Below are positions 2,125-50,967 of a DNA stretch of 50,989 nucleotides, one piece after another (position 1 is the first letter of the stretch; each line of letters begins with the position of its first letter). Source of the DNA: Saprospiraceae bacterium. Lineage in GTDB: Bacteria; Bacteroidota; Bacteroidia; Chitinophagales; Saprospiraceae. The notes beneath the pieces were generated by a model that had not been told where the DNA came from, did not search any database, and saw only the letters and a program-made list of their open reading frames with translations. The translations under genes were made by a program, and so were the position numbers. The stretch spans positions 1 through 50,989 of the forward strand of contig JAHDHF010000004.1 in the NCBI GenBank assembly GCA_020631455.1, given 5' to 3'.

Positions 2125-2153
2125 TTTGTCTTATTATTATTCAGTGTTTTTAT

Positions 2154-2441
2154 GGGCCATCCGCCTCACGTTGTTCGGCGGTCGCTATGCTACGTGGCTC
2201 GCTGTTCGCTCGGCCGCTCATTGCATTCGCGTCTGCTGCGCACCACTTCGCAGCGCTTGTCCGTAAGCAAGCCTAGGCTGAGGGATAGAAGGCAGCACGA
2301 GCGGAGCGAGTGGATTTTTCTTTTCTATTAAAAATAGAAAAGAAAAAGCTAGGTTACCGTACTGCCGTATAGCCCGACCCGAAAATTCAAAAAGCTCCTA
2401 GAGATTTTCTCTAGGAGCTTTTTGAATGAAGGGGCAGCCCC
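2154..2441 (+). repeat. Intergenic structured repeat, copy 1 (module A + module B, tail to tail)
   Basis: Module A (2154-2262) runs from GGGCCATCC to GCTTGTCC and has a CCGCC/GGCGG slot stem. Module B (2276-2441) runs from GGCTGAGGGAT to GGGCAGCCCC. B carries a 15-bp perfect stem (2315-2329 with 2333-2347, 3-nt loop). Its slot is filled by a 19-bp perfect stem (2386-2404 with 2408-2426) ending in a T run, which could terminate transcription of the minus-strand gene at 2459 as well as read on the plus strand. It lies between the 3' end of that gene and the rnpB promoter. Confidence 0.85.
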
Positions 2442-8101: not shown

Positions 8102-8198
8102 AGCTATTCTGACTTGGCTGCTTTTAGAAGAGCGTAAAATTATCACGAGTTTTTTTCTGATTTAAGCACAATTAATAGCCGTTTAACTTTTATTTTTT

Positions 8199-8427
8199 GG
8201 GCATCCGCAGCAATGCTGCGGCGGGCTATTCGGCAGCTCGCTGTTCGCTCGGCCACTTCGCGCTGCTCGTGTCTGCTACGCACTGCCTACTATCCCTATG
8301 CCAAAACATCAGCTTGGACAAGCGATGGGAAGGGGCGCGTAGCGCTCACGAACTTGTGAGTGATGAGCGAATAGCGAAACCCTGGAACAGCGCGATGCTG
8401 CGTAACGAACGTGAAGCAGCATGGCCC
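8199..8427 (+). repeat. Intergenic structured repeat, copy 2 (module C + inverted module A)
   Basis: Module C (8199-8302) begins GGGCATCC, has a slot stem CCGCAGC/GCTGCGG around a 3-nt loop, then GGCGGGCTAT and an end ...CTATGCC. After a 13-bp linker, inverted module A (8316-8427) runs from GGACAAGCG to GGCCC. This A copy is divergent, with a slot stem ATGCTGC/GCAGCAT. The locus sits in the divergent interval between leuS and guaA, so it cannot be acting only as a 3'-end element here. The remainder of the 8102-8501 gap shows no ORF with family resemblance. Confidence 0.82.
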
Positions 8428-12580: not shown

Positions 12581-12680
12581 GGCTCAGGGATGGTAGTGGC
12601 GGCCGTAGGCCGGACACAGCGCAGCTGTGGCTAGCCTAGCGTACCACGAACAGCCCGACCGCGCTCGCGCGGTGAGCCCC
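12581..12680 (+). repeat. Intergenic structured repeat, copy 3 (single module B)
   Basis: Starts GGCTCAGGGATGG, contains the conserved AGCCCGACC, has a slot stem CCGCG/CGCGG and ends GAGCCCC. Two additional short palindromes, GGCCGTAGGCC and CACAGCGCAGCTGTG, replace the usual B core. It is a divergent single copy lying between the SPFH gene and the zinc-ribbon gene, only 29 bp before the latter's start. Confidence 0.7.
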
Positions 12681-13810: not shown

Positions 13811-13822
13811 ATGAGGGATGAT

Positions 13823-13914
13823 GGGCTGCCCTTCATTCATTCCATTCATTCAGGTCGGGCTGTACGGCACTCTCTCGCTGCGCTCGTTCAGACAACACCT
13901 TCCATCCCTCAGCC
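13823..13914 (+). repeat. Intergenic structured repeat, copy 4 (single inverted module B)
   Basis: Starts GGGCTGCCC, continues GGTCGGGCTGTACGGCACTC, and ends CCATCCCTCAGCC, matching inverted module B of copies 7 and 9. Unlike most copies its slot is not a palindrome: it is filled by TTCA/ATTC tandem units (about 13830-13852). It lies between the zinc-ribbon gene and the flavin monooxygenase gene, both on the plus strand. Confidence 0.82.
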
Positions 13915-15113: not shown

Positions 15114-16298
15114 ATGAGCCTATTCACTCACGCTTCAATAGATTTTGAGCAACTATCACAAAAAGCATTTAATTATCGTTGGGCGACACATCCGAGTGAC
15201 GTCATACCGCTCACAGCTGCTGATCCTGATTTTAAAGTCAGCCAAGTCATACGAGACGCGATCAGCCAGTATGCACATGAAGGTTATTTCAGTTATGGAC
15301 CGCCAGAAGGCTTACCATCGTTTAAAGAGTCAGTTGCTCGTTTTTGGACAGAGTTTAAAAATTACCCAATTCCCGCCGAGTTTGTGTTCCCCACAAATAG
15401 CGCAGCCAATGCATTATTTCTGTGTGCAAGTCAATTATTAAACCAAGGCGACGAAGCAATTATTTTAGATCCAGTTGATTTTTTATTTCAAAAAAGCATC
15501 GATCATGCAGGCGCAGTAGCAAGTCGAGTTTCAATAGACCCAATTACATTTCAATATTCAATCGACGATTTAAATGCCGCAGTAAATAATAAAACCAAGG
15601 TTCTCTACATATGTAATCCTCATAATCCAATCGGCAAAGTCTTTTCAAAAGAAGAGCTTTTGCAATTTTCATATTTTGCAGAAAAACATGGATTAAAAAT
15701 TATCAGTGATGAAATCTGGTCAGAAATAGTGTACAAACCGTACGAGCATATTCCAATAGCTTCAGTGTCAGAATATGCAGCTAAAAATACTTATACGATT
15801 CATGGATTATCCAAAAGTTTTGGCTTAGCAGGACTGCGCATTGGATACATTATTTGTCCTGATCAAAAAGCGTATCAAGCAATAGTTGAACGATCTGGAG
15901 TGAACACTACAGCATTCGGAATATCGACTCTCTCACAAATCGCAGGCATTGCCGCTTATGATAAAGCTCGTGATCACGTGCTTCAATTTCGAGATCATTT
16001 GCAGTCGATGCGAGACCTTGCACATCGTCAATTAAATCAAATACCACAATTAAATTGCACAACACCCCAAGGATGTTATGTCATTTTTCCAAAAATGATT
16101 GATCCAAAATTGACTTCAGAAGAGACAGTTATTCGCATTCTCGATCAACAGAAATTAGCGATTGTTCCAGGCTCGCCTGCTTTTTTTGGGCCTGGAGCAG
16201 AAGCACATTTGCGACTATGTTTCGCTACCTCTCGTGAGATATTAGAAGAAGGCATTTCTCGATTAGCTATTGGATTAGAGACTATTTTTAATAATTAA
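15114..16298 (+). CDS. PLP-dependent aminotransferase, MalY/PatB (cystathionine beta-lyase-like) type
   Basis: A 394-aa fold-type I PLP enzyme. The motifs are CNPHNPIGKVF, ISDEIWSEIVY (Asp that holds the pyridine N) and HGLSKSFGLAGLRIGYI with the Schiff-base Lys in SKSF. The NPHNP(I/V)G form and the length are characteristic of the MalY/PatB branch, whose members cleave C-S bonds such as in cystathionine. A plain aminotransferase activity is possible. It lies 11 bp after the monooxygenase gene. Repeat copy 5 begins on the base after its stop codon. Confidence 0.87.
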   Translation: MSLFTHASIDFEQLSQKAFNYRWATHPSDVIPLTAADPDFKVSQVIRDAISQYAHEGYFSYGPPEGLPSFKESVARFWTEFKNYPIPAEFVFPTNSAANALFLCASQLLNQGDEAIILDPVDFLFQKSIDHAGAVASRVSIDPITFQYSIDDLNAAVNNKTKVLYICNPHNPIGKVFSKEELLQFSYFAEKHGLKIISDEIWSEIVYKPYEHIPIASVSEYAAKNTYTIHGLSKSFGLAGLRIGYIICPDQKAYQAIVERSGVNTTAFGISTLSQIAGIAAYDKARDHVLQFRDHLQSMRDLAHRQLNQIPQLNCTTPQGCYVIFPKMIDPKLTSEETVIRILDQQKLAIVPGSPAFFGPGAEAHLRLCFATSREILEEGISRLAIGLETIFNN

Positions 16299-16413
16299 GG
16301 GCCATCCCTCTACCGACAAGTCGGTATTCGGGTCGCTATGCTCCGTGGCTCGCTGATCGCTCGGCCGCTTCGCGTCTGCTCCCTTCGGTCGCACCACTGC
16401 GCAGCGCTTGTCC
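16299..16413 (+). repeat. Intergenic structured repeat, copy 5 (single module A)
   Basis: GGGCCATCC at 16299, slot stem ACCGAC/GTCGGT around a 2-nt loop, then GGGTCGCTATGCTCCGTGGC, and the inner end GCAGCGCTTGTCC at 16413. It abuts the TAA of the preceding gene and ends 26 bp before the -7-like box of sbcC. Confidence 0.83.
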
Positions 16414-20550: not shown

Positions 20551-20584
20551 AGCCGTTCTTAAATTATAATAATGAATAGAATTG

Positions 20585-20858
20585 GGGCATCCGCGACTTC
20601 ACTGTGTTCAGTCGCGGCGGGCTGATTCAGGGTTTCGCTATGCGCTCATCACTCACTAGCGTTCGTGAGCGCCTCGTATTCACTCGCGCCCCTTACCATC
20701 CCTATGCCATGCTGCTATTAGCTACTGAGATGGACAAGCGCTGCGGAGTAGTGGCTTTGCCAGATGCGACGTGGAGCGTAGCTCTAGGAGCAGCCGAGCG
20801 AATAGCGAGCTACGGAGCATAGCGACCGCGACGCGCGATAGCAAGGAGCGGATGGCCC
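20585..20858 (+). repeat. Intergenic structured repeat, copy 6 (module C + inverted module A)
   Basis: Module C (20585-20708) starts GGGCATCC, has a 7-bp slot stem CCGCGAC/GTCGCGG and ends CCCTATGCC. Inverted module A (20732-20858) runs from GGACAAGCGCTGCGGAG to GGCCC. The pair occupies most of the 347-bp gap between gldH and cmk (both minus strand); no gene is seen there. The C+A order equals that of copy 2. Confidence 0.83.
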
Positions 20859-20885
20859 TTCTTAATACTTCAATTCAGTTTGCAT

Positions 20886-24621: not shown

Positions 24622-24978
24622 GGGGCTGCCCCTTCATAAAAAAGCTCCTAGAGATGATTCTCTAGGAGCTTTTTTATTTCAGGTCGGGCTATCCGGCACT
24701 CTCTCCGAGTTCCTTGAAGTCACTCGGAGTTCAAACAACGCCTTCTATCCCTCAGCCATCTTAGCCAGATGGGCTGAAATTATTCTTGCTATAGATTTCA
24801 AAAGAGATAAATCCCGTAGGGATGATAGCATCACATTTATAAAGGACAAGCGCTGTGAAGCAGTAGCCGATAGGCTAGATGCGCGCGCAGCAAGCAGCCG
24901 AGCGAATAGCGAGCTGCGAAACATAGCGACCGTACCCACTTTCCGCCACAAGTGGCGGAAAGTGGGTACGGATGGCCC
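24622..24978 (+). repeat. Intergenic structured repeat, copy 7 (inverted B + inverted A, long linker)
   Basis: Inverted module B (24622-24757) starts GGGGCTGCCCC. Its slot is an 18-bp perfect stem (24637-24654 with 24659-24676) sharing the GCTCCTAGAGA core with copy 1. It ends CTATCCCTCAGCC. An 86-bp linker holds a further small palindrome ATCCCGTAGGGAT. Inverted module A (24844-24978) has the longest slot stem in the window, 20 bp with a 2-nt loop (24930-24949 with 24952-24971). It occupies most of the gap between the 97-aa gene and mraZ. Confidence 0.85.
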
Positions 24979-25069
24979 CAATTAAACCCATTTCTTTTGA
25001 TATGACAGCTAAAAAATTAAAACAATATGTTTTCGTGTGGTCGATTTTCTTTCGATTTATGTTCTAAAG

Positions 25070-36596: not shown

Positions 36597-36625
36597 TGAA
36601 AGCAATAGTCGATTTCGATAAAAGT

Positions 36626-36892
36626 GGGCCATCCGCCTCACGCTGTTCGGCGGTCGCTATGCTTCGTAGCTCGCTGTTCGCTCGGCTGCTCATTACATTC
36701 GCATCTGGCTGTCGCCACTACTTCGCAGCGCTTGTCCAACAAGTAGTAATGGCTGAGGGATGGGAGCAGCGCCGTCAGGCGGATTTTTGGTTTCTATTTT
36801 TCAATAGAAACCAAAAAGCTAGGTTACCGTACTGCGGACAGCCCGACCTATTTTTTTCTATATCATTTGAAATAGAAAAATAGGGCAGCCCC
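36626..36892 (+). repeat. Intergenic structured repeat, copy 8 (module A + module B) inside the dcw cluster
   Basis: Module A (36626-36737) has the slot stem CCGCC/GGCGG as in copy 1. Module B (36751-36892) contains a 15-bp stem (36784-36798 with 36803-36817) equivalent to the one in copy 1 but with two base pairs changed on both arms, and a T/A-rich imperfect slot stem near its end. It lies between murC and ftsQ and fills the 312-bp gap between them. An ORF across it (36593-36883) is not a gene. Confidence 0.87.
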
Positions 36893-40466: not shown

Positions 40467-40552
40467 GGGGCTGCCCGCTCACAGGTTCGCGGTCGGGCTA
40501 TCCGGCACTCTCTCGCTACGCTCGTTCAAACAACACCTTCTATCCCTCAGCC
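40467..40552 (+). repeat. Intergenic structured repeat, copy 9 (single inverted module B)
   Basis: GGGGCTGCCC, slot stem CCGC/GCGG, GGTCGGGCTATCCGGCACTC, end CTATCCCTCAGCC. It lies between the ftsZ terminator and the convergent 246-aa gene, the only clearly convergent locus among the twelve. Confidence 0.85.
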
Positions 40553-43013: not shown

Positions 43014-43127
43014 GGACAAGCGCTGCGAAGTGGTGCGAATGCAATGAGCAGACGCCGTAGGCGGCCGAGTGAATAACGAGCCACGCAGCATAGCGACCGT
43101 ACCGAGTTTACTCGGTACGGATGGCCC
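43014..43127 (+). repeat. Intergenic structured repeat, copy 10 (single inverted module A)
   Basis: GGACAAGCGCTGCGAAG to GATGGCCC, with an 11-bp perfect slot stem (43097-43107 with 43110-43120) around a 2-nt loop. It lies in the divergent interval between the monooxygenase and the M36 protease. The 320-bp gap also holds the protease promoter and nothing else recognised. Confidence 0.85.
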
Positions 43128-43173
43128 ACAAATCGTCCAATTGTATGTCTCATTTTTGTCTCTTTATCAAGAC

Positions 43174-43250: not shown

Positions 43251-46200
43251 ATGAAACGGATTTTTCTCCTTTCTCTTACTTTGGTTTGCAGTCTCAATTT
43301 TTTATTTGGACAGCAAGCCGAACGAATTGCGCTTGATTACCTCAGCGAAACTGCTGCGGAGTACAACATCAATGCGTCTGATCTTAAAGATTACAGAATC
43401 ACTGACCAATATGTATCGAAGCATACTGGCGTCACACATGTTTGGCTCGTGCAGACGATCAATGGTATCGATGTGATTGGTACTCATACGAATGTCAATA
43501 TTTTGAAAACTGGAAAGGTGTTAAATGTAGGCTCTGCATTGATCTCTGATTTGCAAAGTAAAATTGAATCATCAAGTCAATCGTTTTCTGCAAATGCAGC
43601 TGTAAAAGCTGCGATGCAAGATGTTGATATGTCTATAGTTGGAGTACAAGCAAAAACCACATCACGAGGAGCAGCTCAAGAAACAAGTTTTGAAGGCGGC
43701 GCAGATGCTTTGAATGATGCAAGAGCTCGATTAGTGTATCGCCTTTCTGCTGATGAATCAAGCATAAGACTCGTATGGGAAGTTAAACTTGATGCAGGTA
43801 AGCATGCTTACATCTCATATGTTGATGCAGCTAATGGGCAAATCGTTTATAAGCGTGATCGTGTCATCCATTGTCAGTTTGATCATGGCAATGGACAAGG
43901 CTCTTGCTCTGGAAATCACGGAACAGCTCGTGACTTAACTCAACTCCAAACTCAGAACAGTGCTGCAAATAGTTATCGAGTATTTGCTATTCCAGTAGAA
44001 AGTCCAAATCATGGTTCTCGCTCTTTAGTGCTTGATCCTTCTGATCCTGTAGCTTCGCCTTTTGGCTGGCATGATACAAATGGAGCTGCTGGACCTGAAT
44101 TTACTATTACTCGCGGTAATAATGTACACGCATACTTAGATGTCAACGATACAAATACATCAGCTGGTGATGAGCCAGATGGAGGCGCAAATTTAGATTT
44201 TGACTTCCCGTACAATCCTGGAGCACAACCAAGTGCAAGTAGCGATGCTGCCGTTGTGAATTTGTTTTATATGAGCAATATCATGCATGATGTGTATTAT
44301 CGCTATGGTTTTGATGAAGCATCAGGTAACTTCCAGCAAAATAATTATGGAAATGGCGGACAAGGTGGAGATTATGTTGAGTCACAAGCCCAAGATGGTG
44401 GCGGTACAAACAACGCGAATTTCTTCACACCTGACGATGGCCAAAATCCGAGAATGCAGATGTATCTCTGGACAGGGGGAAGTTCTGTGCAGAATTTAAT
44501 GAATGTAAACTCTCCTGCAACTGTAGCTGGACCTTACAGTTCACTTGAGGGGACATTTGGTCCTGGCTTACCAGCTACACCAATTACTGGTAATCTCGTA
44601 CTTGTGGATGATGGTACAGCAAATCCTAATGAAGGATGTAATGCCTTGATTAATGGAGCCGCGATAAATGGAAATATAGCGTTAGTAGATCGTGGAAATT
44701 GCAATTTCACTTTAAAAGTTAAGAATGCACAGGATGAAGGTGCAGTTGCAGTCGTTGTTTGTAACAATGTTGCAGGCGGCCCTATCCAAATGGGGGGAAC
44801 AGATAATACAATCACGATTCCTTCAATTATGATTGACCAAGCTGATTGTGCTAACATTAAAGTAGCACTTGGTTCAGGAGCTGTCAATGTTACACTACAA
44901 CAAGGTGCAGGAAATGTCGATAAAGATGGGGACTACGATAATGGTATCATCGCTCATGAGTATGGTCATGGTGTGTCAAACCGTTTAACAGGAGGCCCGA
45001 GCAACTCTAACTGTCTCGGCAATGATGAGCAAATGGGTGAAGGTTGGTCAGATTGGTTGGGTTTGATGCTCACTATTGAGCCAGGCGATGCTGGAACTGA
45101 TATTCGTGGAGTAGGAACGTATGCTGTCGGTCAATCAACCACTGGTATTGGTATTCGCCCAGCAGCGTACAGTACTGATTTTGCTGTTAATGGCTTTACT
45201 TATGGTGATTCAAATGATGCTGCCAATGTTTCTCAACCACACGGAGTCGGATTTGTATTCGCAACTGTGCTTTGGGATTTGACTTGGGCATTGATTGACA
45301 CATATGGCTATGATCCAGATCTATACAATGGTACTGGCGGAAACAATCTTGCGATGCAACTCGTCCTTGATGGTATGAAATTGCAGCCTTGTAATCCAGG
45401 AATGATTGATGGTCGTGATGCAATCATTGCAGCCGATCAAGCATTTACTGGCGGACAGAATCGTTGTTTGATCTGGGAGGTTTTTGCAAACCGTGGGTTT
45501 GGATTTAGTGCTACCCAAGGATCTTCTAATAGTCGTACAGACCAAGTCGAAGCATTTGATTTGCCTTCATTCTGCCAAAATCCAACTGTAGCTCCTACAG
45601 CAGACTTTAGCGTCAATGTAACGACAAGTTGTAGCGGATCATTCAACTTTACTGATGAATCGACAAATATTCCGCAAACGTGGTTGTGGAATTTTGGTGA
45701 TGGTAATACAAGTACGCTTCAAAATCCATCACACACGTATGCAGCTTCTGGTACATACACAGTTACTTTGACTGCTTCAAATACGATCGGTAGCGATGTT
45801 GAGACTAAAACAAGCTATGTAACAGTAGCTCTTCCTGCAGCTCCAACAACTACTAGCGCAACAATTTGCGCCAATGACAATGCGACGCTTAATGCAAGTG
45901 GTGCGGGTACAATCAATTGGTTTGATGCAGCGAATAATCAAGTTGGTACAGGTTCAACATTTACGACTGGTCCCGTAGGCGCTACATCGACTTTCTTCGC
46001 GCAGTCTGAGATTGTTCAGCCTTCGCAAAATGTCGGCCCAGCAAATAATAGCTTTGGTACTGGAGCCTATCATGGTACAACTTTTACCGGTACGGTAGAG
46101 TTTGATGCATTCGTTCCATTTACACTCGTTTCTGTTTTTGTCGATGCAGACGGAGCTGGCAATCGAGACATCTCATTGTTTGACGCAACTGGAGCAACAC

Positions 46201-46967
46201 TTCAAACTGTAACCGTCAATATCCCCAATGGCACGAGCCGCGTGACGCTCAATATCGATGTCCCAAGTCCTGGTTCATATTCAGTTGGCGGTACGGGAGT
46301 TGATTTATTTAGAAATGACTCTGGAGCTAATTATCCGTATGATCTCGGCGGAATCTTGACAATGACTGGTTCACCAGCAGGTCCAGATTTCTATTACTAT
46401 CTCTACGACTGGGAAGTCCGCGAAGCAAGTTGCTTCTCAGCACTTGAGCCAGCACTCGTCACAGTAGCAGCTACTCCGACGGCCAATTTCTCTTCTACAA
46501 ACGTTGGTTCAGACTATACATTTACTGATCTATCTACAGGCGCGACATCATGGGCCTGGGATTTTGGTGATGGCAATACAAGCACAATGCAAAATCCGAT
46601 ACACACATATACAGCAGCTGGCACATACACAGTGACATTAACAGTAGATAATGGTACATGCACAAATGTTTTCACGCAGACAGTATCTGTCGCTGTTTCT
46701 ATCGAAGATGTACAAGGTCTCAATGAATTAAGTCTCGTTCCAACATTTGGATCGGGTACAGCTCTGTTTACTTTGGATCTGCAAACGAAGCAGTCTGTGC
46801 GTCTCGACATTATGGACGCAACTGGTCGATTGATTTCTACTAATAATTATGGTGAAGTCAATCAAGTCAATGAGCAACTTCAATTTACTGGAGCAGCTGG
46901 CATTTACTTTATTCGCTTGACAATTGGAGAGGCGACTGTGATTAAGCGGTATACACTAATGCCTTAG
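43251..46967 (+). CDS. Secreted M36 (fungalysin-type) metalloprotease with PA, PKD and T9SS domains
   Basis: A 1238-aa exported protease. A signal peptide (residues 1-20, cleavage near FGQQ) is followed by a FTP-like propeptide. The M36 catalytic domain carries HEYGH (H569, H573) and GEGW with E597 as zinc ligands. A PA domain (about residues 445-545, [16 protein letters not shown]) is inserted just before the HExxH. Next come a PKD domain ([18 protein letters not shown]), an Ig-like segment, a jelly-roll-like domain, a second, very similar PKD domain, and a C-terminal sorting domain ending KRYTLMP. The sorting domain implies type IX secretion. I chose ATG 43251; the upstream 17 codons are not signal-like. 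Confidence 0.93.
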
Positions 46968-47030: not shown

Positions 47031-47045
47031 TCGAATTATGAATAT

Positions 47046-47305
47046 GGGCCATCCTCTATTTTTCTATTGAATTTTCACTAGAAAGAATAGAGGTCGCTAT
47101 GCTTCGTGGCTCGCTGCAACCCTGAGTAGTCGGGGTTCGCTCGGCAGCTCCTACGTCGCGTCTGGCTGTCGCCACCACTTCGCAGCGCTTGTCCAAAAGA
47201 GTATTATTGGCTGAGGGATAGAAGGCGTTGTCTGAACTCAGCGCGACATTGGAGCGCTGAGAGAGTGCCGAATAGCCCGACCGCGCCACAGGCGCGGGCA
47301 GCCCC
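47046..47305 (+). repeat. Intergenic structured repeat, copy 11 (module A + module B)
   Basis: Module A (47046-47194) has an A/T-rich slot stem (about 13 bp, one mismatch) and an extra AACCC...GGGTT hairpin inserted in its core. Module B (47209-47305) has an inner palindrome CTCAGCGC/GCGCTGAG and a slot stem CCGCGCC/GGCGCGG. It lies between the protease terminator and amn. With the terminator it accounts for the 375-bp gap; an ORF across it on the minus strand is spurious. Confidence 0.87.
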
Positions 47306-50835: not shown

Positions 50836-50850
50836 TTGTTTGTTTTTATT

Positions 50851-50967
50851 GGGCATCCGCCTCGCAATGCTCGGCGGCGGGCTATGCGGCAGCTCGCTAT
50901 TCGCTCGGCTGCTGCGGCTACGCCTTGCATCTCCCGATAAATCGGGACTGCCTACTATCCCTATGCC
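50851..50967 (+). repeat. Intergenic structured repeat, copy 12 (module C; possible partner outside window)
   Basis: GGGCATCC, slot stem CCGCC/GGCGG, GGCGGGCTAT and an end CTATCCCTATGCC. An extra short palindrome CCCGATaaATCGGG sits in the core. In copies 2 and 6 an inverted module A follows module C; the window ends 22 bp later, so this cannot be checked. Confidence 0.8.

Follow-up and report, generated by a model that had tools for sequence, protein, structure and literature searches.

BIME/REPIN-like pairing of two unlike repeat modules in a Saprospiraceae genome and its relatives

Introduction

In published descriptions, a REP is a palindrome of 20-40 bp (PMC3733652), the BIMEs of E. coli combine unlike inverted units, Y with Z types (PMC6006769, PMC2817692), and the TnpA-REP genes of subclass 2.6 in Bacteroidetes are flanked by atypical structures that are copied elsewhere in the genome (PMC6006769). 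Here we describe modules of three kinds, A, B, and C, in a Saprospiraceae genome. Like the E. coli BIMEs, in which Y is joined with Z1 or Z2, these modules are extragenic, occur in hundreds of copies, and place unlike palindromic classes in inverted orientation with sequence between the units. In contrast to BIMEs, the units are multi-stem structures of 84-267 nt rather than hairpins of 20-40 nt, and their pairing continues across resident genes; the GT[AG]G foot tetranucleotide of BIMEs and REPs is absent. The REPINs, which are REP doublets of P. fluorescens, resemble the modules in that the unit appears to be an inverted doublet around a spacer and a single strand is predicted to fold. However, REPIN doublets are described within REP groups GI-GIII, whereas the partners here belong to different frames or subtypes, single modules are not more decayed, and no cognate RAYT was found in the searches described below. 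The subclass 2.6 TnpA-REP systems come from the same phylum and have atypical structures with genomic copies, but the one Y1 protein of the host genome carries subclass 1.2 motifs and a module-rich relative, G020, has no Y1 protein detectable by our search. MITEs and the ends of IS200-IS605 elements are likewise short, non-coding, structured at their ends, and found at AT-rich sites; in contrast, no parent element was found for the modules at 29 Y1 loci or at the host Y1 gene, and the ends here are unlike and inverted. A literature search for such repeats in Bacteroidetes or Saprospiraceae, by title and abstract among open-access PMC papers, gave no match.

Results

Six tail-to-tail pairs in the window

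The window, by which we mean the whole 50,989-nucleotide stretch of DNA analysed, belongs to the host genome G000, a 2.9-Mb MAG in 323 contigs. Modules start with a GGGC or GGGG head and end with a tail of the form ..TTGTCC, ..TCAGCC, or ..TATGCC, and were located with a finder that looks for head, core, and tail motifs within a limited span. An earlier note on this DNA had claimed that six loci (copies 1, 2, 6, 7, 8, and 11) carry two modules, always tail-to-tail, with one A in each pair joined either to B (copies 1, 7, 8, and 11) or to C (copies 2 and 6), and that the linkers differ and reach 86 bp in copy 7. Reading of the sequence together with the finder output confirmed this description at all six loci (Table 1), with linkers that measure, in order, 13, 13, 23, 86, 13, and 14 bp. 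The finder itself returned 17 modules in the window, comprising five tail-to-tail pairs and seven others; it missed the A of pair 2, which has a variant interior and was recognised by its head and tail.

The only Rfam match at gathering score within the window is a gene for bacterial RNase P RNA (class A) at positions 1711-2080 on the minus strand, and the first pair starts 72 bp to its right. Pair 1 itself gave thirteen Rfam matches at E<=1, every one far below gathering score. The window also holds two 86-nt repeats (45687-45772 and 46557-46642) that are 80% identical and look like coding sequence of a PKD-type domain.

Table 1 Modules, linkers, and centres in the window.
Feature	Position	Strand	Remark
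Module A, pair 1	2153..2262	+	Covariance model R1, 115 bits
Linker, pair 1	2263..2275	.	13 bp; assigned to no class
Module B, pair 1	2276..2441	-	Interior type 2; P1 is a terminator-like hairpin
Module C, pair 2	8198..8302	+	B frame with other end stem
A-ended module, pair 2	8316..8427	-	Variant interior (type 4)
Module B, single, diverged	12581..12680	-	4 mismatches (finder)
Module B, single	13822..13914	+	Finder
Module A, single	16298..16413	+	Finder
Module C, pair 6	20584..20708	+	Type-4 interior
Linker, pair 6	20709..20731	.	23 bp; class beta, assigned by eye
Module A, pair 6	20732..20859	-	Finder
Module B, pair 7	24622..24757	+	Finder
Centre, pair 7	24758..24843	-	86 bp, class gamma; one of 4 gamma-profile seeds
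Module A, pair 7	24844..24979	-	Finder
Module A, pair 8	36625..36737	+	Closest to A of pair 1
Module B, pair 8	36751..36892	-	Finder
Module B, single	40467..40552	+	Finder
Module A, single	43014..43128	-	Finder
Module A, pair 11	47045..47194	+	Small extra hairpin in a loop
Module B, pair 11	47209..47305	-	Finder
Module C	50850..50967	+	Contig end 22 bases away

The pairing rule across the host genome

The pairing was followed through a non-random sample of 892,830 bases, 42,212 of them N, which amounts to 31% of the MAG and consists of the window and 81 further stretches (60 chosen by contig number, 20 through matches to a C module, and one for the Y1 gene). In the first 477 kb sampled the finder called 139 modules, against none in one mononucleotide shuffle of the same sequence; it misses diverged copies, such as two more A matches of model R1 in L033 (50 and 18 bits). 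The full sample contains 262 modules, classified by tail as 123 A, 100 B, and 39 C. Of 43 neighbours closer than 200 bp, 42 are tail-to-tail, every one of these joining A with B or C, and the one exception is an overlapping and doubtful head-to-head call (L088 9821/9920). At 200-1000 bp, 20 of 22 neighbours are tail-to-tail and 18 of these are heterotypic. Below 1 kb the counts are therefore 62 tail-to-tail and 60 heterotypic among 65, against maxima of 28 and 19 in 2,000 shuffles of the strand and type labels. The five exceptions within 1 kb are two A+A pairs in tail-to-tail orientation, one A/A pair head-to-head, one C/C tandem, and the doubtful call; outside the finder counts, one B faces a second B-frame module that has another end stem (beside L052 10261). 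The arrangement holds far outside the window, and the A+A and head-to-head pairs whose existence the earlier note had left to be seen do occur, rarely.

With increasing distance the orientation reverses. Tail-to-tail neighbours account for 18 of 33 at 1-2 kb (15 of them heterotypic), 5 of 24 at 2-3 kb, 6 of 58 at 3-5 kb, where 36 are head-to-head, and 0 of 26 at 5-10 kb, where 16 are head-to-head. This profile, tail-to-tail near and head-to-head far, is a matched-parentheses pattern.

It is scarcely credible that the arrangement is an artefact of assembly or chance in a fragmented MAG. A module lies within 60 bp of an end in 11 of the 60 whole contigs read (for example in L035, L037, L072, and L085), and therefore the repeats probably limit assembly. 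However, the label shuffles do not reproduce the pairing, and the same arrangement appears in independently assembled relatives.

The modules are extragenic: judged with a simple ORF caller, they occur in 170 of the 365 intergenic regions that measure 30 bp or more, and only 2 of 139 lie inside an ORF. The earlier proposal of a BIME-like unit recognised as an inverted pair holds insofar as the heterotypic pair organises the genome-wide sample and, as described below, its linkers recur with polarity, but the wording that A pairs with B or C needs to be recast. Because C, apart from its end stem, has the frame of B (P2 GGGCTRT..YATCCC), the rule becomes one of an A-frame module with a B-frame module.

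Module anatomy and folding

Full modules are 84-267 nt long and have several stems. Besides the end stem P0 and the conserved stem P2, each has a hairpin, P1, and inner hairpins, both of which are exchangeable. Partners belong to one of two frames, A or B (the latter including C); stems covary in both, and the inner parts, as judged by reading, are exchangeable types common to both frames. In alignments of 45 A and 37 B modules selected for moderate length, analysed with hand-given structures that derive from the very same sequences, both-sided changes appeared at 8 of 22 pairs in the A stems (57 cells, shuffle mean 14.3) and at 4 of 14 pairs in the B stems (33 cells, shuffle mean 10.6); the cell counts were matched in 0 of 500 shuffles and the pair counts in 6 of 500. 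In the A P2 stem, three pairs covary without a single one-sided change (CG 35/UA 9; UA 36/CG 8/GC 1; GC 33/AU 12), and a pair in the B P2 stem alternates between A-U (24) and G-C (12). Further pair types did not rise above the shuffles in these alignments (A, 13 against 15.2; B, 7 against 7.0). RNAalifold kept most of P2 in A with the outer pairs one column off; in B it kept the end stem, lost the P2 stem of the hand-drawn structure, and proposed other short stems.

The A end stem P0 is a perfect 6-bp helix in eight of nine G020 copies and several others, and forms only with a bulge and G.T in 10 host copies and most of those from G009. A P0 of at least 5 bp was found in 18 of 36 own combinations and 197 of 1,038 swapped combinations, with one module omitted because its tail was unrecognised. 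End stems vary between genomes and are often still complementary, as in GCATCA/TGATGC, GCGTCA/TGACGC, GCGATA/TATCGC, and GGGCTA/TAGCCC. Heads stand at AT-rich sites; over the twelve bases that precede the head, C makes up 1-9% at each position (215 modules).

The P1 hairpin is freely replaced in both sequence and length. Its stems, in 187 hairpins, contain 1,104 Watson-Crick pairs, 4 G.T, and 10 A.C, counts that fit folding as DNA; the asymmetry between the 4 G.T and the 10 A.C rests on too few pairs to pick the folded strand. Many hairpins have, by eye, a 2x2 internal loop of TC/TC. Read on the complementary strand, this loop is a tandem GA/AG motif, and that strand may be the folded one. In several B modules (for example 2276-2441 and 24622-24757) P1 is a terminator-like GC hairpin between runs of A and T. 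Single B and C modules are frequent between convergent genes, making up 31 of the 40 singles in that position. Small hairpins (CCCTGAGTAGTCGGG and similar) sit in the loops of some modules (window 47045-47194, L035 13227-13366, and L059 2936-3123), as if a smaller repeat lived within the repeat.

Recurring linkers and a possible composite unit

The 42 linkers no longer than 200 bp were read from A to B and range from 9 to 198 nt. Two short classes, one around AAGCTGCT (9-19 nt) and one around ACCTCAGAGTGTGACAGCTGCT (20-23 nt), take in about 14 of them by eye, and nine fall by profile into two long classes, gamma with six of 86-92 nt and delta with three of 171-178 nt; about 19 of the 42 lie outside every class. 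A gamma profile built from four seeds found nine copies in the sample. Each lies at a B tail with the same polarity, and six also have A; the delta profile recovered only its three seeds, each between A and B. Because the linker classes recur with fixed polarity, the A-centre-B arrangement looks like one composite element, at least for some pairs. Among close pairs, the similarities of linker, A, and B are almost uncorrelated (0.00-0.08), and therefore either recent copies of the whole unit are rare or its parts have been exchanged.

The earlier suggestion that single modules are derivatives of pairs was not supported. Against the consensus motifs, modules that stand alone or bracket genes show no more mismatches than those in close pairs, with Mann-Whitney p values of 0.11-0.56 for the A and B modules tested. 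REPIN singlets were found to be more diverse than doublets by a measure other than the one used here (PMC3116915).

Distribution among relatives

Covariance models R1 (for A) and R2 (for B) were run on 40 genomes, host included. The A model matched in four genomes, with at least 92 modules in the host, at least 92 in G020, 58 in G009, and one in G007, and the B model in three, with at least 101 in the host, nine in G005, and two in G009. A pattern scan of named genomes gave at least 34 stretches, and those listed all come from Saprospiraceae, Lewinella, Phaeodactylibacter luteus, and Portibacter marinus records; the A core had no match in IMG/VR. In G005, from another genus, B-frame modules carry other ends, GGGGCCG or GGGGCCT (L176, L179, and L181), and model R1 found no A.

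The tail-to-tail arrangement also occurs in two other Saprospiraceae genera, represented by G009 and G020. On G009 contigs picked for their A matches, all three close pairs join A with B tail-to-tail (L211, L212, and L221), with A called by model and, in two of the three, B by motif. In G020, all four neighbours less than 1 kb apart are tail-to-tail. In two of these pairs the partners are the subtypes A2 and A1, and the first 33 nt of the centre are common to both pairs; of the other two, one combines A with B and one combines A1 with a weak A2, 437 bp apart. Of the six G020 neighbours at 1-2.1 kb, four are tail-to-tail (L227, L228, L230, and L289) and two are head-to-head (L279 and L290). Given the A1/A2 partners of G020, the rule therefore seems to be one of two unlike partners facing inward rather than always A with B.

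The search for a mobilising enzyme

A pairing of unlike inverted units follows the same logic as the Y/Z BIMEs, and one explanation is that the modules are true REP/BIME elements mobilised by a RAYT/TnpA-REP tyrosine transposase. The subclass 2.6 genes mentioned above lend this some plausibility within Bacteroidetes, and transposases are present, with one Y1 protein in the host and eight Y1 matches in G009. Several observations make the explanation unlikely. The host protein has the motifs DHIH, WQ, and YIQNQEKHH, the signature of subclass 1.2, which is described without REPs in PMC6006769, and no Y1 protein with class 2 motifs was found in the host. This protein is matched in 22 of the 40 genomes, host included, and 19 of the 22 have no A-model match. 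The nearest module to the host Y1 gene is 1.3 kb away and none flanks it, and models R1 and R2 found no module at 29 Y1 loci of 15 relatives, a subset of the Y1 matches, searched with flanks of about 1.5 kb wherever the contig was long enough. G020, which is 97% complete and has its many A modules, has no match to Y1_Tnp at E<=0.001, and the modules show no GTAG-type foot. RVT_1 at the same threshold was absent from the host and G020 and present in G009. Because the foot, the unit size, and the cognate enzyme all differ from those of RAYT-REP systems, the modules are not classed with them, and BIME/REPIN-like is the right analogy.

Resident genes between partners

Tail-to-tail pairing extends to modules about 2 kb apart with resident genes between them. 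Of the 33 heterotypic tail-to-tail neighbours at 200-2100 bp, 25 enclose genes on one strand, three enclose genes on both, and five enclose no ORF of at least 90 aa. The A module is on the 5' side of the gene in 22 of the 25 one-strand brackets and on the 3' side in three. Each of 21 of these 25 holds one gene, mostly in the same orientation, as might be expected if the modules were the ends of gene-carrying mobile cassettes, integron- or transposon-like, with the enclosed genes as moved cargo. The identified genes, however, include ordinary chromosomal ones such as those for RNase P protein, YebC, and DNA photolyase. Integron integrase (TIGR02249) did not exceed the cut-off in any of three genomes, with weaker matches in all three and in all 14 controls.

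Gene order also speaks against moved cargo. In the ClpC-STAS-RNase Z block, STAS adjoins RNase Z at all 30 loci (in 30 of the 40 genomes, host included), with ClpC ahead of them in 22 and not found in eight, where some of the loci are incomplete. A module lies on each side of STAS-RNase Z in G020 (63 bits and a weak 21 bits) and on one side only in the host, and models R1 and R2 found no modules at the other STAS-RNase Z loci. In this one G020 bracket, at the ancestral place of the genes, the comparison shows stationary genes, with modules that appear to have settled on both sides. Two further comparisons point the same way, to genes that are probably resident. In both the host and G020 the genes for trigger factor and a RelA/SpoT-like protein adjoin each other; G020 has an A module between them, and the finder and models R1 and R2 found none there in the host. 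A bracketed divergent gene pair (L099 3486-5365) is also adjacent in G009. Moved gene cassettes, disfavoured and very improbable, were rejected, since synteny contradicts them in the testable cases.

The motif TAnnTTTG, which we treat as promoter-like, occurs past the tails of single A modules, pointing at a gene, in 8 of 71 cases. It points into the heads of 0 of 109 A modules and 7 of 121 B and C modules. We considered modules as small RNAs with their own promoters and rejected this on the count for A heads.

The pair could instead be kept by selection, with A and B each supplying one half of a functional device, of DNA or RNA, placed around a transcription unit no longer than about 2 kb. 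Such a device, with A ahead of the promoter and B beyond the gene, could for example be a topological or transcriptional boundary, and partnerless modules would be tolerated or lost. Neighbours at 200-2000 bp, which are tail-to-tail in 38 of 55 cases and both heterotypic and tail-to-tail across resident genes in 33, are consistent with such a device, as are the 22:3 placement of A on the 5' side, the positions of TAnnTTTG, the undecayed state of bracket and single modules, and the high occupancy of convergent gaps, which are the most occupied and hold modules in 51 of 78 cases. Against it, 42 of the 62 tail-to-tail neighbours within 1 kb enclose only a linker, close pairs in tandem gaps show no strand preference (13:10), the A model matches so few of the 40 genomes, and the recurring centres look like one element. 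We regard selection for such a device as possible, though not probable.

Discussion

The modules may represent the two dissimilar ends of a mobile composite repeat of Saprospiraceae that resembles BIMEs and REPINs and whose enzyme has possibly been lost, a reading in which we have middling confidence. The unit would consist of an A-frame and a B-frame module placed tail-to-tail around a centre, with both heads at AT-rich sites. Such units, and single modules, would probably have spread through an enzyme acting in trans on a folded single strand and needing one of each end, and this enzyme may since have disappeared. We infer the mobility of the modules from their copy number and distribution; at base resolution, the sequences compared showed neither excision nor insertion, nor any empty/filled pair. 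Brackets would arise where modules settle on either side of a resident gene that does not move, as the one G020 bracket shows, and some copies now look co-opted, possibly as terminators between convergent genes.

A two-ended mobile element alone explains neither the brackets around genes nor the placement of A on the 5' side in most of them. A more tentative reading, which we think rather unlikely, is that A and B in tail-to-tail orientation are matched brackets of a segment of up to about 2 kb, and that what is conserved is the relation between partners rather than the insertion of a unit. What lies between them could then be an empty linker or a further repeat, or else a resident gene that has A on its 5' side. 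The orientation rules of these brackets would resemble those of convergent loop anchors. If true, the bracket reading would describe a two-site system of directional boundaries across a large share of the intergenic regions.

The REPIN picture, as given in the description cited here, does not predict that stationary genes are bracketed. With hundreds of copies, several genera, and an A module in each of two cultured species, the rule that unlike ends face inward is testable. In a module-rich genome with no detectable RAYT or reverse transcriptase, the question of what moves or maintains REP-like repeats becomes directly testable as well.
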